Source: an uncultured Opitutia bacterium
Lineage (GTDB): Bacteria; Verrucomicrobiota; Verrucomicrobiia; Opitutales; Opitutaceae
Assembly: GCA_903825285.1 (NCBI GenBank)
Contig: CAIJZY010000020.1
Location: forward strand, 1-38,355
Direction: 5' to 3'
Length of the DNA stretch: 38,355 nucleotides
Part shown: one piece after another, positions 1,066-27,956 of the stretch
How the letters are laid out: each line of letters begins with the position of its first letter
Numbering within the stretch: the first letter of the stretch is position 1
Made by a program: the position numbers and the translations under genes
The notes under the pieces: generated by a model
Seen by the model: only the letters and a program-made list of their open reading frames with translations
Databases searched by the model: none
What the model was told of the DNA's origin: nothing

Positions 1066-1833
1066 ATGGCCGCCGCCAAACTCCGCCTCGATGAGCTGCT
1101 GGTCGCCCGCGGGCTCGCCGCGAGCCGCGCGCAGGCCAAGGCCCTGATCATGGCCGGCCGCGTGCTGCACGGCACGGAGCGGCTGGACAAGCCCGGCAAG
1201 GATTTCCCCGCCGACCTCGAGCTGACGGTGGAGCAGCCGCCGCGGTTCGTGAGCCGTGGCGGGGAAAAGCTCGCCGCCGCCCTCGCGCAGTTCGGGCTCG
1301 ACCCCACCGGCGCCCACGTGCTCGACGTCGGGGCATCCACCGGCGGTTTCACCGACTGCGTGCTGCAGGCCGGGGCGGCGGACGTGGTCTGCGTGGATGT
1401 CGGCCGCGCCCAGCTGCACGCCAAGCTCCGCGCCGACCCGCGCGTGACCAACCTCGAGAAGGTCAACGCGCGCCATCTCCGCCCGGGCGACCTGCCCCGG
1501 GCCGAGTTTGACCTCGTGGTGATGGACCTCTCGTTCATCTCGCTGAAATCAGTCCTGCCCGCCGTGTGGCCCTGCCTCCGCGTTGGCGGCACGCTCGTCG
1601 CGCTCGTGAAGCCCCAGTTCGAGGCCGGCAAGGCGGAGGTGGACAAGGGCCGCGGCGTCATCCGCGACCCCGCCGTGCAGGACGCCACGCTGGCCGCCGT
1701 GCGCGACTTCGCGCTCAAGGAACTCCCCGGCGCCCGGCTCGTCGGCACGATGGACTCCCCCATCACCGGCGCGGATGGGAACCGGGAGTTGCTGCTCGCG
1801 CTGAAACACGCGGCCGTAGCGAGTATCGGGTAG
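1066..1833 (+). CDS. tlyA: TlyA-family rRNA (cytidine-2'-O)-methyltransferase
   Basis: This 255-residue protein has an N-terminal S4 RNA-binding domain (about residues 6-65: [25 protein letters not shown]). A FtsJ/RrmJ-type methyltransferase domain follows. Motif I is [17 protein letters not shown] near residues 85-100, and the catalytic region is [11 protein letters not shown]. Family members 2'-O-methylate 16S and 23S rRNA. The [13 protein letters not shown] linker is diagnostic. The gene order tlyA-nadK is common in bacteria. The last codons and the TAG stop (1831-1833) come from an intergenic inverted-repeat element starting at 1816. The native C-terminus may therefore have been altered by its insertion. 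Confidence 0.93.
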
Positions 1834-1987
1834 CGCGTAGCGAGCATATAGCTATTCAATACCCCACGCCTACCTCGCACGTGTGATCCTGCTGCTTTCC
1901 GTATGAGTGCGCTCATCGGGCAGAAGAACGCCGGAGTTGAACAGCTCGTTTCATCCCAATGCTCGCAACGCGCTACCCGCTACTCGC
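1816..1987. repeat. Heptad-arm inverted-repeat element without a gene, tlyA/nadK gap
   Basis: The left arm (1816-1847) reads as four 7-mers of type GTAGCGN (N = A, G, C, A) ending in GCAT. The second 7-mer is GTATCGG. The right arm (1959-1987) is its reverse complement with two differences over 29 bp. The 111-bp interior encodes no convincing protein. It holds a small palindrome (ATAGCTAT, 1848-1855) and a short hairpin near 1903-1916. The element fills most of the gap between tlyA and nadK and supplies the tlyA stop codon. It has the same arms as the elements at 10171-10319 and 14548-14973, so I read it as a non-autonomous copy. Confidence 0.8.
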
Positions 1988-2058
1988 GCCGGCCTCGTGC
2001 CCGACAAAGCGCAAAAAGATTCGCGCGACCCAGTTCCGGACTGTAGGGTGAAGGTTCA

Positions 2059-10156: not shown

Positions 10157-10170
10157 GATTCCGGGGGAAA

Positions 10171-10319
10171 GTAGCGGGTAGCGGGTAGCGGGTAGCGAGT
10201 AGAAAAGCCCGCGCTGGCAGGGACGCATGCGCCGGATGCTGCCAGGCCGACAACGGGATCGCCGAGGCTTTGCATATTCTGGTTCGGATGCTCGCTCCGC
10301 GCTACCCGCTACTCGCTAC
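10171..10319. repeat. Heptad-arm inverted-repeat element without a gene, gatA/gatB gap
   Basis: The left arm (10171-10202) is GTAGCGG three times, GTAGCGA once, then GTAG. The right arm (10288-10319), read on the minus strand, is four 7-mers of the same family ending in GCAT (N = A, G, C, A). This is the same as both arms of the 1816-1987 element except for one base. The 85-bp interior holds a further imperfect palindrome (CTGGCAG..CTGCCAG, about 10213-10245) and no gene. The element starts 1 bp after the gatA stop and ends 14 bp before the gatB ATG, so it replaces the whole gap inside an operon. Confidence 0.82.
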
Positions 10320-10320
10320 C

Positions 10321-11787
10321 TCAATCCAGCGCCGGCCGGCGCAGGACCCAGTCGTGGCCCCGCTCGTAGGCCTGGGCGATGGCGAGGAGGTTGGCTTCCT
10401 GGAACGGCTGACCGATCAGCTGCAAGCCGATCGGCAGGCCGCCAGGGGTGAAACCGCAGGGCACGCTCACGGCGGGCAGGCCGGCGAGGTTCACACCGAT
10501 GGTGTAAATGTCGCAGAGGTAGAGCGCGAGCGGGTCGGACTTCTCCCCGAGCTTGAAGGCAGGCACGGGCGACGTCGGCGTCAGGAGCGCGTCCACCTCG
10601 CGGTAGGCGTTGAGGAAATCCTGGCGGATCAGCGTCCGCACCTTCTGCGCCCGGAGGTAGTACGCGTCGTAGTAGCCGCTGGAGAGCACGTAGGTGCCGA
10701 GGATGATGCGGCGCTTGACCTCCGCGCCGAAGCCCTCGGCCCGGGACTTGAAATACAGGTCCACGGCGTCCGTGGCGAATTTCGAACGGTGGCCGTAGCG
10801 CACGCCGTCGAACCGGGCGAGGTTCGACGAGGCCTCGGCCGTCGCGATGATGTAGTACGTGTCGAGGCAGTAGGGCGTGTGGGGCAGCGAGACGGGTTTG
10901 ATCTCGCAGCCCTGGGCGCGATAGTAGGCGATCGCCTGCTCCACCGCGGCGCCAACGGCGGGATCGAGGCCCTCGCCGAAATACTCCTTCGGGATGCCGA
11001 GGCGCCATGGGCCGGTGCGCCGCTTCAGCTCGGCGCGGTAGTCGGGGACCTCGGCGTGGAAGGACGTGGAGTCGAGCGGGTCGTGTCCGGCGATGGCGCC
11101 GAGGACGGTCGCGGCATCCTCCACCGTGCGCGCGAACGGGCCGATCTGATCGAGCGAGGAGGCGAAGGCGATCAGGCCGTAGCGCGAGACGAGTCCGTAG
11201 GTCGGCTTGAGTCCGACCACGCCGCAGAGCGCCGCGGGCTGGCGGATCGAGCCGCCGGTGTCCGAGCCGAGCGTCGCGCAGGCCTCGCCCGCCGCGAGCG
11301 CCGCCGCGCTGCCGCCCGAGGAGCCGCCGGGCACGCGGGCCAGGTCCCAGGGATTGGCCGTCGGGCCGAAGGCGGAGTTCTCCGTCGAGGAGCCCATGGC
11401 AAACTCGTCACAGTTCAGCCGGCCCCACAGCACCGCCCCGGCCTCCTTGAGCCGGGCCGTCACGGTCGCATCATAGGGCGAGACAAAGTTCGCGAGCATC
11501 CGGCTCGACGCCGTCAGCGGCTGGCCCGCGGCGGCGATCACGTCCTTGAGGCCGACCGGGATGCCGTCGAGCGGCCCCCGCGCCTGGCCCGCGGCCCGGC
11601 GGGCGTCCGAGGCGGCGGCCGCGGCCAGCGCCCCAGACTCGTCGCGGGAATTGAAGGCATGGACGCGGCCCTCGACCGCCTGCGTGCGGGCGATGACGGC
11701 CTGCGCGAGCTCCACGGCGGAAATCGCCTTCGCCTCGAGGAGGGCGCCGAGCTCGGCGATCGACTTCAGGCTGATGGGGTCGGCCAT
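10321..11787 (-). CDS. gatA: Asp-tRNA(Asn)/Glu-tRNA(Gln) amidotransferase subunit A
   Basis: The product has 488 residues and is the glutaminase/amidase subunit of GatCAB. The amidase-signature triad is visible: Lys81 in VGLKDVI, cis-Ser156 in [12 protein letters not shown] and nucleophile Ser180 in [12 protein letters not shown]. Ser-Ser-Lys spacing equals that of characterised GatA (offset of two from the S. aureus numbering). It releases ammonia from glutamine and channels it to GatB. The ATG at 11787 lies 7 bp after the gatC stop. Its TGA (10323-10321) abuts an inverted-repeat element that separates it from gatB. Confidence 0.97.
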
Positions 11788-12086: not shown

Positions 12087-14543
12087 CTATTTCCGGATCT
12101 GCCAGCTGGTCGAGCGCGTGACCTCGTCCTGGATTTTCTGCAGGACGGCATTCACCTCGTCGTCGACGAGGGTTCGCTCCGGCGAGCGGAACACGAGCGA
12201 GAAGGCCAGGCTCTTCCTGCCCTCGGGGAGGCCGGTCCCCTGATAGACGTCGAACACCTCCACCGCCTCGAGGGTGAAGGCCGTGCCGACGGCGGCGCGC
12301 GCGGTCTGGGCGAGCGTCCGGCGCACGTCCTCGGCCCGCACGCCGGCGTCGACGACCAGGGCGAGGTCGCGCAGCGCGGCCGGCAGCAGGCTGAAGTCGG
12401 CGTAGCGGCGCCGCGACTCGGCGGATGCGAGTTTCTCCGGCAGGATGGAGACGATGCCGGCGTAGACCTTGCCCTCGACGCCGAGCGCCTTGACCATGGC
12501 GAGGTTGAGCAGGCCGAACCGCACGGCCCAGCCCTGCGCCATCTCGCCGGCGGCGGCGGAGTGCCCCTCCTGCCAGCCGTAATAGGGTCCCTCGATCGGC
12601 ACGAGGGGCTGGCGCGCGAGGTCGACCCCGGCCGCGGCCGCCAACGCGGACGCGTGCTGCTTGGCGGTGTAGAAATCAGCCGGTGCGCACGGCAGCCAGG
12701 TCCGCGCGCCGAGCGGCTCGGCGATGACGAAGCCGACGGCGGCGCACTCGTAGTTCTGGCCGTTGCGCTCGATGAACACGCGGCCCGTCTCGCAGAGCCG
12801 CGAGGCCGGGACGCCGCGGGACTGGTTCAGCCGCAGCGTCTCCAGCAGGCCCATGATCAGCGTGGGGCGAAGGTGGGACTGGTCGTCGACAAACGGGTTG
12901 GCCAGCGCGAGCTCGACGGCCGCGGTCTGGGAGACCCACGTGCTGATCTCCTTCGCGGAGCGCAGCGTGTAGTTCACGCACTCGTGGAAATCGTGGCCGA
13001 CCAGGTAGTCCGTCACGCGGCGGTTGAAGCGCACGACCGGGTCGTCGTCGCCGAGCAGCCCGGGCGAGTTCACCTGGGCGGGCGGGATCTTGTCCGTGCC
13101 ATGCAGCCGCAGCACCTCCTCCACGAGGTCGATCGGCCGGTCGAGGTCGTCGCGCCAGCTCGGGATGCCCACCGTCCAGGCCGGGCCGCGGGCGGGCGTC
13201 GGCTCCTCGCGGGTGACGTTGAGCTCGAGCGCCTCGAACGCGGCGCGCATCTCGGGCGCGGGAATGTCGAAGCCCAGCTTCTCGCAGATGTAGTCGTGCG
13301 TGACGACGATCTCGCGCTGCCATGGCACGTCGCTGCCGACGCGGTAGGCGGGGCCGACGGCCTGGCCGCCGGCGGTCTCGATGATGAGATCAATGGCCCG
13401 GTAGGCGGCTTCCAGAGCCCCGTGCGGGTCCACGCCGCGCTCGTAGCGGTGGCAGGAGTCCGACGTCAGGCCCAGCCGGCGGGAGGTCCAGCGGATCGAC
13501 TGGCGCTTGAAGATGGCGCACTCGAGCACGAGGTCGGTGGTGTCCGGGCTGACGCCGGAGTTCTCCCCGCCCATGATGCCCGCGATGACGACCGGCTGGT
13601 GGGCGTCGGCGATGACCAGCATCCGGCTGGAGAGCGTCCGCTCCTTGCCGTCGAGGGTGACGAGCTTCTCCCCGTCGGTGGCGCGGCGGACGACGATCTG
13701 GTTGCCGCCGAGCTTGCGCGCGTCGAACGCGTGCAGCGGCTGGCCGGTCTCGAGCATCACGTAGTTGCCGACGTCGACCACGTTGTTGATCGGGCGCAGG
13801 CCGACGGCGGTGAGCCGCTGCTGCATCCACGCGGGGCTCGGGCCGATCTTCACGCCCTGGATGACATGCGCGGTGTAGAGCGGGCAGTCCTCGGCCGAGA
13901 GGACCGAGACGCCGCGCAGCAGCTCGGGTTGGCCGGGGCCGTCGAGCTCCCCGCGGAAGCGCTCCTGCGGGTAGGTCAGCGGCAGGCGGAACCAGGCGGC
14001 GAGCTCGCGCGCGATGCCGAGGTGCGAGAGGCAGTCGGGGCGGTTGGGGGTGATCTCGATGTCGAACACCACGTCGCCGGGCGGCAGCACCGCGTTGATG
14101 GGCGTGCCGAGTGCGGGCCGGTCGGTGAGGATGAGCAGGCCGCTGGCGTCCTCGGCGACGCCGAGTTCCTTGGCCGAGCACATCATGCCGTCGGAGGCCT
14201 GGCCGCGGATCTTGGACTGCTTGATCACGAAGTCGCCCGGGAGCACGGCGCCGACCAGCGCGACGGGCACGCGGTCGCCGACCTGGTAGTTCTGGGCGCC
14301 GCAGACGATCGTCTTCACGCCGCCGGCCGGGCCGACGTCCACCTGGCAGACCGAGAGCTTGTCGGCGTTGGGGTGCTTGTCGCGCACGAGGACCTCGCCG
14401 ACGACGACGGAGCTGAGCGGCGGGGCGCCGGTGCGGAGCACCTGCTCGACCTCGAAGCCGAGGAAGGTGATGGCGCGGCTCAGCTCGTCGACCGAGGCGT
14501 CGAGCGGGACGTAGTCTTTCAGCCAGTTAAGGGAAATTTTCAC
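12087..14543 (-). CDS. pheT: Phenylalanyl-tRNA synthetase beta subunit
   Basis: The product has 818 residues. Domains in order are an N-terminal B1 segment (KISLNWLKDYV), a tRNA-binding EMAP-like domain (VVGEVLVRDKHPNADKLSVCQVDVG), the B3/B4 editing domain (PNRPDCLSHLGIARELA, then INNVVDVGNYVMLETGQPLHAFDA), B5, the catalytic-like core (ERGVDP..) and a C-terminal ferredoxin-fold anticodon-binding domain. The start is a GTG at 14543 (VKISLNW), matching the family N-terminus. Its ribosome-binding region is occupied by the arm of an inverted-repeat element that ends only 4 bp upstream, and no Shine-Dalgarno sequence is present. The frame also runs open through that arm to 14633, which would give a false N-terminal extension. 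The gatC gene follows after 1 bp. Confidence 0.96.
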   Translation of the reverse strand: MKISLNWLKDYVPLDASVDELSRAITFLGFEVEQVLRTGAPPLSSVVVGEVLVRDKHPNADKLSVCQVDVGPAGGVKTIVCGAQNYQVGDRVPVALVGAVLPGDFVIKQSKIRGQASDGMMCSAKELGVAEDASGLLILTDRPALGTPINAVLPPGDVVFDIEITPNRPDCLSHLGIARELAAWFRLPLTYPQERFRGELDGPGQPELLRGVSVLSAEDCPLYTAHVIQGVKIGPSPAWMQQRLTAVGLRPINNVVDVGNYVMLETGQPLHAFDARKLGGNQIVVRRATDGEKLVTLDGKERTLSSRMLVIADAHQPVVIAGIMGGENSGVSPDTTDLVLECAIFKRQSIRWTSRRLGLTSDSCHRYERGVDPHGALEAAYRAIDLIIETAGGQAVGPAYRVGSDVPWQREIVVTHDYICEKLGFDIPAPEMRAAFEALELNVTREEPTPARGPAWTVGIPSWRDDLDRPIDLVEEVLRLHGTDKIPPAQVNSPGLLGDDDPVVRFNRRVTDYLVGHDFHECVNYTLRSAKEISTWVSQTAAVELALANPFVDDQSHLRPTLIMGLLETLRLNQSRGVPASRLCETGRVFIERNGQNYECAAVGFVIAEPLGARTWLPCAPADFYTAKQHASALAAAAGVDLARQPLVPIEGPYYGWQEGHSAAAGEMAQGWAVRFGLLNLAMVKALGVEGKVYAGIVSILPEKLASAESRRRYADFSLLPAALRDLALVVDAGVRAEDVRRTLAQTARAAVGTAFTLEAVEVFDVYQGTGLPEGRKSLAFSLVFRSPERTLVDDEVNAVLQKIQDEVTRSTSWQIRK

Positions 14544-14547
14544 AGGA

Positions 14548-14973
14548 GTAGCGGGTAGCGAGTAGCGGGTGGCGCGTAGGACCTCAGTTGCGTTCGAGGC
14601 CGTTGATGTAGCCCTGAAGGAGGCGGGAGACATCCTCGAGTTCCGATTGCAGCGGAGCCGTGGGGACGTAGCCCAGATCCTGCGCCAGGATCAGCTGGTA
14701 GAGACATTCGTCGGCCGGGCCTTGGGCAATGTTGTAGAAGCGGATCTTGTCAGGCTTCGTGCGCTTCCGGAATCCCTCGACGAAATTAGCGGGGATGCTG
14801 GCGCCGGCGCGACGCAGCTGGGAGGTGAGCGCGAACAGCTCATGCTTCGGGAATCTTTCGGTGACCCGATAAACCGCGAGCGTGAAGGCGTGGGCTCGTT
14901 GCCACACGATCACGTCGCGGAAGGATTGTGATTTGTTGATCATGCTCACTACTCGCTACGCGCTACACGCTAC
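14548..14973 (-). mobile_element. IVS-like element: four-helix-bundle gene between heptad-repeat inverted arms
   Basis: The left arm (14548-14579) is a run of GTAGCGN 7-mers (N = G, A, G, then GTGGCGC) ending in GTAG. The right arm (14942-14973), read on the minus strand, is GTAGCGT, GTAGCGC, GTAGCGA, GTAGTGA, then GCAT. The arms can pair over about 29 bp, with most mismatches at the variable seventh base. The enclosed gene begins with an ATG that shares its first two bases with the GCAT end of the right arm and stops 4 bp from the left arm. The unit lies between the pheS stop and the pheT start and fills that gap. I infer a mobile element related to 23S rRNA intervening sequences; how it moves is unknown. 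Confidence 0.78.
14584..14943 (-). CDS. Four-helix-bundle protein of the S23/IVP (23S rRNA intervening-sequence) family
   Basis: The product has 119 residues. The start INKSQSFRDVIVWQRAHAFTLAVY and the central LTSQLRRAGASIPANFVEGFRKRT segment match the TIGR02436-type four-helix-bundle family. The end (ECLYQLILAQDLGYV..LLQGYI) also matches. Members are encoded by intervening sequences in 23S rRNA genes of Leptospira and Coxiella. They also resemble the Avd accessory protein of diversity-generating retroelements, a positively charged pentameric barrel. The molecular function is not settled; nucleic-acid binding is likely. The ATG at 14943 is preferred over an in-frame GTG at 14949. No reverse transcriptase or 23S rRNA is nearby. 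It is same-strand between pheS and pheT, so it is probably transcribed with them. Confidence 0.9.
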   Translation of the reverse strand: MINKSQSFRDVIVWQRAHAFTLAVYRVTERFPKHELFALTSQLRRAGASIPANFVEGFRKRTKPDKIRFYNIAQGPADECLYQLILAQDLGYVPTAPLQSELEDVSRLLQGYINGLERN

Positions 14974-14984
14974 TCGGCAATGCC

Positions 14985-16028
14985 TCACGCGAACTGTTGC
15001 AGGAAACGCAGGTCGTTCTGGTAGAAGTAGCGGATGTCATCGATGCCGTAGAGGAGCATCGCGAGCCGCTCGAGGCCCATGCCGAAGGCGTAGCCGCTCC
15101 AGATCTCGGGATCGTAGCCGACGCCGGCGAACACCTGGGGATCGACCATGCCGCAGCCGCCGATCTCGATCCATTCCTTCTTCACCTTGGGCAGGTGCCG
15201 CGCGCTGAGGTCCACCTCGAAGCTCGGCTCGGTGTAGCCGAAGTAGTGCGGGCGGAAGCGGGTCTTGGTGTCCGGCCCGAGGAGCGACGCGAAGATGTAG
15301 TCGAGGAGGGCCTTGAGGTCGCGGACCGTGACGTTCTTGTCCACGTAGAGGCACTCCAGCTGGTGGAAGTTCGCCGAGTGGGTGGCGTCGGTCGTGTCGC
15401 GGCGGTAGGTGCGGCCCGGGGAGACGATCCGGATCGGCGGCGCGCCCTTGAGCATGGTGCGGATCTGCACCGAGGACGTGTGCGTGCGCAGCAGGTATTT
15501 TTCGCCGGGGGTCTTCCTCGAGACGTTGCCGAAATGCGCGGTGTCGGGGAAATAGAACGTGTCCTGGGTGTCGCGCGCCGGGTGGTCGGCCGGCGTGTTG
15601 AGGGCGTCGAAGCAATAGTACTCCGTCTCGACCTCGGGACCGTCGGCCACGGTGAAGCCGACCTTGCGGAGGATGCGGCACATCTCCTCGCGGACGAGGG
15701 TGAGCGGGTGGTAGGTGCCGGGGCCGCCGCCGGGGGCGGGCAGCGTGGGGTCGACGGCGGGCCCGAGCTGGGCCTGCAGCTCGCCGGCCTCGATCCGGCG
15801 GAGGGCGGCGTCGAGCAGGTCCTGGATGCGGGCCTTGGTCTCGTTGATGAGCTTGCCCATGGCGGGCCGCTGCTCCTTCGGCACGGTGCCCATCTGCTTC
15901 ATCAGGGCGGTGAGTTCGCCGTTGGGGCCGACGAGCCGGGCCTTGGCCGCCTCGAACTCCGGGCGGTTGGGCAGCGCGGCGAGGTCGGTCTGGGCCTTGG
16001 CAACGAGCGCGGTGAGGGTGGCTTGCAT
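14985..16028 (-). CDS. pheS: Phenylalanyl-tRNA synthetase alpha subunit
   Basis: This 347-residue catalytic subunit has an N-terminal coiled-coil that contacts tRNA (about 1-90). A class II aminoacyl-tRNA synthetase core follows, with FNALNTPADHPAR-like segments (DALNTPADHPARDTQDTFYF), LLRTHTSSVQIR (motif 2 region), GRTYRRD, HQLECLYVDKNVT and the motif 3 GMGLERLAMLLYGIDDIR. With PheT it forms an alpha2-beta2 enzyme that charges tRNA-Phe. The start is an ATG at 16028, downstream of a terminator that isolates it from rplT, so pheS likely has its own promoter within about 40 bp. The pheT gene is 442 bp downstream because of the inserted element. Confidence 0.97.
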   Translation of the reverse strand: MQATLTALVAKAQTDLAALPNRPEFEAAKARLVGPNGELTALMKQMGTVPKEQRPAMGKLINETKARIQDLLDAALRRIEAGELQAQLGPAVDPTLPAPGGGPGTYHPLTLVREEMCRILRKVGFTVADGPEVETEYYCFDALNTPADHPARDTQDTFYFPDTAHFGNVSRKTPGEKYLLRTHTSSVQIRTMLKGAPPIRIVSPGRTYRRDTTDATHSANFHQLECLYVDKNVTVRDLKALLDYIFASLLGPDTKTRFRPHYFGYTEPSFEVDLSARHLPKVKKEWIEIGGCGMVDPQVFAGVGYDPEIWSGYAFGMGLERLAMLLYGIDDIRYFYQNDLRFLQQFA

Positions 16029-25454: not shown

Positions 25455-25520
25455 AAGGTGGGAGCGAGCTTGCTCGCGACCGAGCGACGCAGATGTCGCG
25501 AGCAAGCTCGCTCCCACCTT
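25455..25520. repeat. REPIN-like perfect inverted repeat with Pseudomonas-type REP core
   Basis: A 25-bp arm (25455-25479) is repeated perfectly in inverse orientation (25496-25520) around a 16-bp spacer. Each arm contains GTGGGAGCGAG and an inner palindrome GCGAGC-TT-GCTCGC, so each can fold by itself. This is the structure of REP sequences, and the pair matches a REPIN. The core closely resembles REP sequences known from Pseudomonas. The 356-bp gap around it (25365-25720) has no gene. It also holds a small 7-bp hairpin (25431-25449) and an inverted CCCACATC/GATGTGGG pair (25524-25531, 25568-25575). No RAYT transposase gene is in the window. Confidence 0.88.
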
Positions 25521-27836: not shown

Positions 27837-27845
27837 TTCGAAGCT

Positions 27846-27933
27846 CGGAGTTCGCAGATCGCAGTTCGGGAAACTCGCCGTAACACAGCCAGACCCGTCC
27901 GTCAGGATCGCGAACTGCGATCTCCGAACTGCG
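27846..27933. repeat. Inverted pair built of a second 7-bp unit, pyrE/htrA gap
   Basis: The left arm (27846-27868) and the reverse complement of the right arm (27911-27933) agree at 21 of 23 bp. Read outward-in, the right arm and its flank divide into 7-mers of type NTCGSAG (ATCGCAG, CACGCAG, TTCGGAG, ATCGCAG). The interior is 42 bp and has no gene. The overall plan (imperfect 7-bp units in inverted arms) matches the GTAGCGN elements although the unit differs. It lies between convergent genes and may act as their terminator. Confidence 0.75.
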
Positions 27934-27956
27934 TGCTGCGATCCGTCCGGCCCGGT

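Follow-up and report, generated by a model that had tools for sequence, protein, structure and literature searches.

The window analysed here, a stretch of 38,355 nucleotides from an uncultured Opitutia bacterium of the Opitutaceae (contig CAIJZY010000020.1, assembly GCA_903825285.1), carries in the gap between pheS and pheT a complete S23/IVP four-helix-bundle gene (PF05635/TIGR02436; 14584..14949, minus strand) framed by inverted arms of imperfect GTAGCGN heptamers. We consider this unit to be probably a minimal mobile element, composed of one S23/IVP gene between inverted tandem-heptamer arms. The arm lying 3′ in the gene sense (14548..14579, minus strand) has its heptamers on the plus strand and the 5′ arm (14949..14976, minus strand) has them on the minus strand; both were found in a repeat search, which gave two inverted pairs (21 nt at 90% and 18 nt at 94%), and again as pair 14547/14974 of the survey described below. 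The arms are imperfect because one of them has a GTGGCGC variant. In the gene sense, the upstream array (...GTAGTGAGCATG) runs into GAGCATG with the likely start codon, an ATG at 14943 read by eye within ...GTGAGCATG (a GTG is present at 14949), and the TGA stop (14584–14586) lies 4 bp from the downstream array. The original prediction had described exactly this arrangement, including its position on the same strand as two operon genes, and it was confirmed, the neighbours by their Pfam domains: upstream pheS (14985..16028, minus strand; tRNA-synt_2d), used below as the query for orthologous gaps, and downstream pheT (12087..14543, minus strand; B3_4, B5, FDX-ACB and tRNA_bind). The pheT start was placed by eye at a GTG at about 14543 and also follows the gap in relatives; the list of open reading frames (ORFs) has a longer frame, 12087–14633.

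The window protein matched PF05635 with an E-value of 1.8e-32 (112.1 bits, cut-off 33.8) and TIGR02436 with 115 bits (cut-off 24), and a Pfam scan of the element returned no domain besides PF05635. Its AlphaFold model (pLDDT 94.6) has four helices and a predicted S23/Avd fold, matching 2GSC (Xcc0516 of Xanthomonas campestris; E 3.6e-7, TM 0.83/0.88), 2RLD and, more distantly, Avd of the Bordetella phage diversity-generating retroelement (DGR; 4DWL, TM 0.77/0.86, Foldseek E 0.03), as well as DGR ribonucleoprotein structures. The X. campestris protein is described as forming a homopentameric ring (PMC4990558). The S23 protein is under purifying selection, as seen from a median dN/dS of 0.17 (maximum 0.35; 80 of 466 pairs, those with dS below 1.5).

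The predicted fold shared with Avd, a weak NCBIfam Avd match (20.8 bits, cut-off 80) and the direction bias of S23 genes reported below would all suit a retro-element in which S23 acts like Avd with a reverse transcriptase in trans. Unlike in Avd systems, however, no RVT_1 (PF00078) match was obtained in the source draft genome (96% complete), in a search that was positive in 3 of 14 control genomes; because of this, a reverse transcriptase helper is unlikely here and we regard the retro-element as very unlikely overall.

Filled and empty insertion sites

The reading of the unit as a mobile element is supported by sites found with and without such a unit. On cyanobacterial plasmids, arms and gene were seen to arrive together with 5-bp duplications at two sites. 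Plasmid C of Trichormus variabilis ATCC 29413 has an S23 element between two codirectional genes, and six other plasmids match 83% of the query from this plasmid at 97.4–97.7% identity and have no annotated S23 gene. The empty site, read in one of the six (97.7% identical), is AAAAAGTAATTAACAAATAAATATG; the filled site consists of AAAAAGTAAT, arm, gene, arm and GTAATTAACAAATAAATATG, which amounts to a 5-bp duplication, GTAAT. This position is occupied in Nostoc C052 by an element whose gene is truncated, and in Brasilonema by a pair of these heptamers that lacks a gene. The second site, on Nostoc plasmids, was filled in three and empty in four of seven records, with a duplication of TTCTA in two of the filled records and TTCTA/TTCTG in the third. 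Both clear duplications, GTAAT and TTCTA, overlap the stop codon of the upstream gene. GTGA can be read by eye on both sides of the window copy; it is uninformative because it is expected anyway from the TGA stop and the GTG start, and no duplication was established from this copy.

Turnover was also observed between pheS and pheT within the genus of the source organism. We located pheS in all 29 genomes examined, 12 of which (source included) belong to the genus. The gap is 441 bp in the source and 439 bp in G152, where the S23 gene is 84% identical and the heptamer the same, and in G153 it is 483 bp, with an S23 gene that is 58% identical and a different heptamer. Five of the 12 gaps are empty (8, 8, 8, 10 and 13 bp) and a further four are gene-less (48, 63, 85 and 110 bp), the 85-bp one being an inverted array by eye. 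The site has therefore been entered more than once and is empty in near relatives. Presence and absence of a unit at one site in close relatives, by which a transposable element is recognized, was thus found both on the plasmids and at pheS–pheT, and the original suggestion of a mobile element, which hinged on the unit not being fixed at this position, is supported.

Elsewhere in the cyanobacteria, an S23 element (L254, 1995–2351) lies between cas10 and cmr3 in the type III-B CRISPR operon of Picosynechococcus PCC 7003; PCC 7002 is without it.

Arms, protein lineages and repeat period

Five PF05635 genes are present in the source draft genome (3.74 Mb, 62 contigs). On reading their flanks, all five proved to lie between inverted heptamer arrays, each with its own heptamer (GTAGCGN, ATTTACG, and the CAGAGGT, GGCCAAG/TGACAAG and TAAGG types). 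Arms were scored by inverted local alignment of the 220 bp before against the 220 bp after the matched stretch, with a cut at a score of 14; the TAAGG-type arms are weak and fall under it (11.6). A family set of 75 S23 loci, made up of the five from the source genome, 30 first matches and 40 lower-listed ones and hence high-scoring rather than random, had arms at 67 loci, whereas a 900-bp shift of the window gave arms in 0 of 65 cases and shuffling in 1 of 375. With such control rates, the arms of the window locus (score 19.2) are not due to chance. The joint repeat period of the 67 armed loci was 7 bp in 63, 8 in three and 9 in one.

A wide set was taken from GTDB-derived contigs (the best 80 of 587 loci, many in metagenome bins; 77 usable, three having too little flank). 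By record title it covers Bacteroidota (many), Verrucomicrobiota, Chloroflexota, Planctomycetota, Acidobacteriota, Omnitrophica, Nitrospirae, Delta-, Alpha- and Gammaproteobacteria, Gracilibacteria and others, and it overlaps the family set at least once (the L144 protein is 100% identical to L029). Arms were detected at 60 of the 77 loci against 1 of 139 windows shifted by 800 bp, with a period of 7 in 41, 8 in 15, 10 in two, and 5 and 9 in one each. The single archaeal and the single cyanobacterial locus of this set were among those without arms; unlike the latter, the cyanobacterial plasmid copies do have arms. Among IMG/VR contigs, some of them redundant and analysed without a shifted-window control, 25 of 30 S23 loci reached the cut, and a tblastn search against phages with one S23 protein (L028) gave no match. 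The expectation that other four-helix-bundle genes carry such arms was thus borne out in both sets. A search for GTAGCGN alone, as proposed in the original prediction, would have been too narrow, because the element lineages have different heptamers.

Hidden insertions in rRNA genes were considered for the loci below the cut and rejected, with 0 Rfam matches in the 20 of these 25 loci that were scanned. One S23 gene (L145), 75% identical to an armed relative, has no detectable arms within 220 bp and is possibly a degraded or domesticated copy.

In two other genera, the pheS–pheT gap contains a PDDEXK_3/GxxExxY gene (PF13366; 125 and 112.9 bits) instead of S23. PF13366 was found in 85 of 100 genomes of the family, and 28 of 29 usable GxxExxY loci (of 30) had inverted arms, as opposed to 0 of 57 shifted windows and 1 of 145 shuffles. 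The period of these arms was 9 in 15, 8 in six, 10 in four and other in three, i.e. 8–10 in 25 of the 28. Since S23 and GxxExxY arms differ in this way, the repeat period goes with the protein family, and no other indirect evidence points as strongly to the protein or a partner as the reader of the arms. Cross-locus alignment, in which 36 of 75 S23 and 23 of 29 GxxExxY loci scored, was dropped as sole control in favour of shifted windows and a fixed cut, as it misleads because loci with the same heptamer match one another.

Arm type follows protein lineage as well. Over 127 armed S23 loci, arm similarity tracked protein identity (Mantel r 0.42, against a maximum of 0.09 in 999 permutations), and arms were shared by 75% of pairs at 70–95% protein identity, 29% at 60–70%, 4.5% at 50–60% and 0–1.4% below. 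The arms of one element are alike (a property selected for), and units are mostly unrelated once proteins are half identical, so that both arms of an element seem to change in concert. They also match in register, because shuffling the unit order in one arm lowered the match in 130 of 138 loci, by 5.5 points on average (p ≤ 0.05 individually in 45), in a test that leans toward register since the real arm pair is already the best alignment.

Were the heptamers ordinary slippage repeats, or translation or transcription signals, lying at S23 genes only incidentally, one might point to the three-frame stops that are somewhat enriched in S23 5′ arms (41% vs. 21% permuted in the family set; 43% vs. 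36% in the wide set). As the purpose of the 7-bp unit, however, such stops were rejected, being found in 0 of 26 GxxExxY arm loci. The near absence of the inverted arrangement from shifted windows, and the arrival of arms and gene together in the filled and empty sites, already contradict this explanation, to which we attach next to no probability.

Gene-less copies of the arms

Inverted pairs that have the arm types of S23 elements but no gene are common. We surveyed 438 kb of the source genome (twenty 20-kb stretches chosen before reading, some on GTAGCG-bearing contigs, plus the window) and found 77 close inverted pairs, compared with one in a triplet-shuffled copy. Thirty-eight of them were periodic (period 7 in 22, 9 in 12, 8 in one, and 6 or 12 in three); these include one period-7 pair that is the window S23 element, one period-9 pair at the resident GxxExxY gene on C10 and one period-9 pair that is probably coding. 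By eye, each of the five S23 arm types with a resident gene is also represented by gene-less pairs (least surely TAAGG), and a further three 7-mer families lack a resident gene. Within the window, two short gene-less copies of the GTAGCGN family lie at 1816..1990 (survey pair 1824/1982) and 10170..10325 (survey pair 10179/10318), with ends placed by eye, and an inverted pair of another arm family (GATCGCAGTTCG type) at 27841..27938 (survey pair 27849/27930). Across the 3.74-Mb draft, GTAGCGNGTAGCG with at most one mismatch occurs 153 times, whereas the same pattern in reverse order occurs 48 times.

The gene-side inner end GAGCA is kept in all five GTAGCG copies tested (GAGCAT in three of four), as expected of derivatives resembling miniature inverted-repeat transposable elements (MITEs), and two of three CGAACGCC pairs have a common loop by eye. 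As to the tie between arms and gene drawn in the original prediction, gene-less arms are numerous, but many are, by eye, of resident-gene types and the GTAGCG copies retain the inner end. At the level of the family, GTAGCGNGTAGYGNGTAGCG was found in 74 of 126 genomes with a PF05635 match and in 3 of 24 without (Fisher p 3e-5, kinship ignored).

In Xanthomonas, GGGAATC heptamers form many convergent inverted pairs (70 and 75 in two genomes) and are described as generally not found with mobile elements (PMC4692102). On the view that such pairs are parts of S23 elements, any genome containing GGGAATC arrays would be expected to have a GGGAATC-armed S23 gene. Among 369 genomes sampled from the class to which Thiohalocapsa (L174, G166) belongs, one has the triple repeat of this heptamer, and the only PF05635 match of this genome, between accB and accC by eye, is framed by GGGAATC arms (score 26.4), although the gene is apparently frameshifted; a gene-less pair in the same genome has the inner end CGTTCAAGC in common with the armed gene. 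The prediction thus passed, in one genome and not in a survey.

Gene-less inverted pairs also resemble REPINs, the hairpin-forming doublets of repetitive extragenic palindromic (REP) sequences, and the source genome has three Y1_Tnp matches. It could be argued, then, that the arms are REP/REPIN-like palindromes moved by a REP-associated tyrosine transposase (RAYT; Y1 HUH) with the S23 gene as a passenger. Such a helper is unlikely because each of the three Y1_Tnp genes (L302, L303 and L304) sits beside its own non-periodic palindrome family (CTAAGGGGTCAGGCCGCTAG, GTGGGAGCGAGCTTGCTCGCGAC and TGTAGGGCGGGGTCGCCGACCCCGCC, respectively), and none of the heptamer patterns sought flanks them. Most of the S23 genes tested lie between heptamer arms, and with GxxExxY the period shifts to 8–10, so that the arms follow the protein. 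Furthermore, HUH elements of the RAYT type are not known to make 5-bp duplications. All in all, we judge a RAYT-driven origin to be very unlikely.

Other palindromes were noted as well. A pair of the second RAYT palindrome family (GTGGGAGCGAGCTTGCTCGCGAC) lies in the window at 25457–25518, and non-periodic GTCATCCTGAGCGA...GAAGGATCGC palindromes form inverted pairs about 90 bp apart at L282 15495–15631 and L284 18790–18929. Two gene-less CACGAAG 9-mer elements of the source genome (L276, 3151–3297; L279, 7068–7224) have an apparent nested inverted pair in the loop and could fold into a branched structure.

Movement, transcription and relation to known systems

Taking the longest open stretch as a proxy for the neighbouring gene at loci with long enough flanks, we counted, among 107 such loci, 69 at which both neighbouring frames run the same way as the S23 gene and nine at which both are opposite, the rest being mixed or unassigned; 69 vs. 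9 is the telling figure. For GxxExxY, both neighbours were codirectional at 12 of 27 loci and both opposite at four. An example of the rare orientation is an S23 gene (L307, 1489–1857) on a Nostoc plasmid, placed between nrdB and nrdA and oriented opposite to transcription.

This bias could mean that RNA is the selected property, the arms being kept as a transcript hairpin cut by RNase III, with mobility rare and incidental. In keeping with it, RNA folding predicts that the arms of the window element form a long stem whose loop contains the gene (−176.1 kcal/mol, z −3.95 vs. 100 shuffles), the two arms match in register and the Coxiella intervening sequence (IVS) is excised in vitro by RNase III (PMC4990558). 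On the other hand, no excess of G.U was seen among the arm mismatches in the sense RNA. A first mismatch run gave A.C above G.U in all three sets, and 79 representative loci had 154 A.C against 98 G.U; as this ratio of 1.57 compares with 1.26 predicted from flank composition, the mismatches neither support pairing of the sense RNA nor provide a firm opposite result. Target duplications and gene-less copies point instead to insertion as DNA, and we hold selection on the RNA to be unlikely.

Some findings weigh against the preferred reading of a mobile element. The target duplication is clear at two of six sites, the others (Nostoc site B, Aulosira, nrdB–nrdA, and PCC 7003 vs. 7002) being too diverged or ambiguous. 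The longest common direct repeat of the flanks was 5 nt at 29% of 165 loci vs. 21% of cross pairs, a mild excess; this flank-only reading is weak, and the outer ends of degenerate arrays are not sharp. Arms were under the cut at 8 of 75 family and 17 of 77 wide-set loci, and most gene-less loops are unlike each other and not visibly derived from an S23 gene. Three genomes (G004, G044 and G065) have GTAGCG arrays and no PF05635 match, counter to a strict dependence on a resident gene. The direction figures stand without an ordinary-gene control. Finally, the searches for a helper, which covered RVT_1 and Y1_Tnp, revealed no nuclease or recombinase that acts on the arms. As to the arrays without a PF05635 match, G004 has 14 and G044 nine GTAGCG array matches, and the gene may have been lost or missed, or another mover may exist.

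Under the mobile-element reading, arms and gene would enter gene boundaries inside operons as DNA, with a target duplication of about 5 bp and mostly codirectional with the operon, which can then express the S23 gene. An S23 pentamer may bind the heptamer arrays at both ends and pair them, and may recruit a separate nuclease or recombinase for cutting and joining, an outside enzyme being proposed because the element has no room for one. We take the element to encode the arm-recognizing part and to borrow the cutting and joining part, which would make it transposon-like. Gene-less copies would be moved in trans, like MITEs. In the transcript, the arms could form a hairpin whose loop contains the gene, and RNase III could trim this hairpin as in rRNA IVSs, in which case an insertion would do little harm.

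The closest published parallels come from several systems. S23 ORFs within 23S rRNA IVSs with inverted ends are already known, and the origin and role of these IVSs are stated to be unclear (PMC4990558). Like the IVSs of Coxiella and Leptospira, the window element has an S23/IVP gene (about 430 nt in Coxiella) between inverted termini that form a stem in the predicted fold; unlike them, it lies between protein genes of an operon, pheS and pheT, and not inside a 23S rRNA gene, both of its arms are tandem-heptamer arrays, and S23 elements show numerous copies without the gene as well as insertions with target duplications. Tandem heptamers (GACAGAT) lie immediately ahead of the S23 ORF in Coxiella, in numbers that vary by strain; they fit the class of the window element, and this is not generalized in the excerpts of that paper (PMC4990558). 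Tandem heptamers are described as the most abundant periodic intergenic repeats, with no clue to function (PMC6344855), and in Beggiatoaceae the intergenic unit is TAACTGA (PMC4679880). The heptamers described here have the same period as these and, as in Xanthomonas, occur in inverted pairs (PMC6344855, PMC4692102, PMC4679880), but are tied to S23 genes, including one GGGAATC case; the Xanthomonas and Beggiatoaceae papers (PMC4692102, PMC4679880) do not use the wording ‘four helix’, and their excerpts name no link to S23.

Going by their generally known features, REPIN/RAYT systems share with S23 elements dispersed inverted pairs of short repeats, most of them gene-less and a few framing a family gene. 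They differ in that the S23 four-helix bundle has no transposase match, the arms are tandem 7-mers and the Y1_Tnp genes of the genome own other palindromes. Similarly, MITEs and small insertion sequences are generally known for inverted ends, duplications and gene-less derivatives, as seen here (about 5 bp, at two sites), whereas the ends of S23 elements are imperfect arrays whose unit differs between lineages, and only PF05635 was matched in Pfam. Among the matches listed in a literature search, whose coverage left out preprints and most subscription journals, no paper tied heptamer arms to S23 or GxxExxY genes. Small repeats in cyanobacteria have been the subject of older work.

A wider proposal, on which we are evenly divided, makes S23/IVP proteins central to a mobile-element class that is very widespread and has no transposase of its own. 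The protein would read the tandem-heptamer arms, both arms would be rewritten or homogenized, with the unit changing in concert as a result, and gene-less copies would move in trans. Together with the GxxExxY sister (arms of about 9 bp), this class would be the origin of most inverted intergenic heptamers of prokaryotes, and rRNA IVSs would be members that landed in 23S rRNA. The S23-element model makes two questions testable together, namely the nature of intergenic heptamers and the origin and role of rRNA IVSs. It also provides natural pairs of protein and repeat, the repeat period being 7 (or 8) in the case of S23 and about 9 in that of GxxExxY, from which recognition of DNA or RNA could be decoded. 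The S23 architecture, found again in numerous bacterial phyla, may account for the scattered 7-letter repeats of bacteria.
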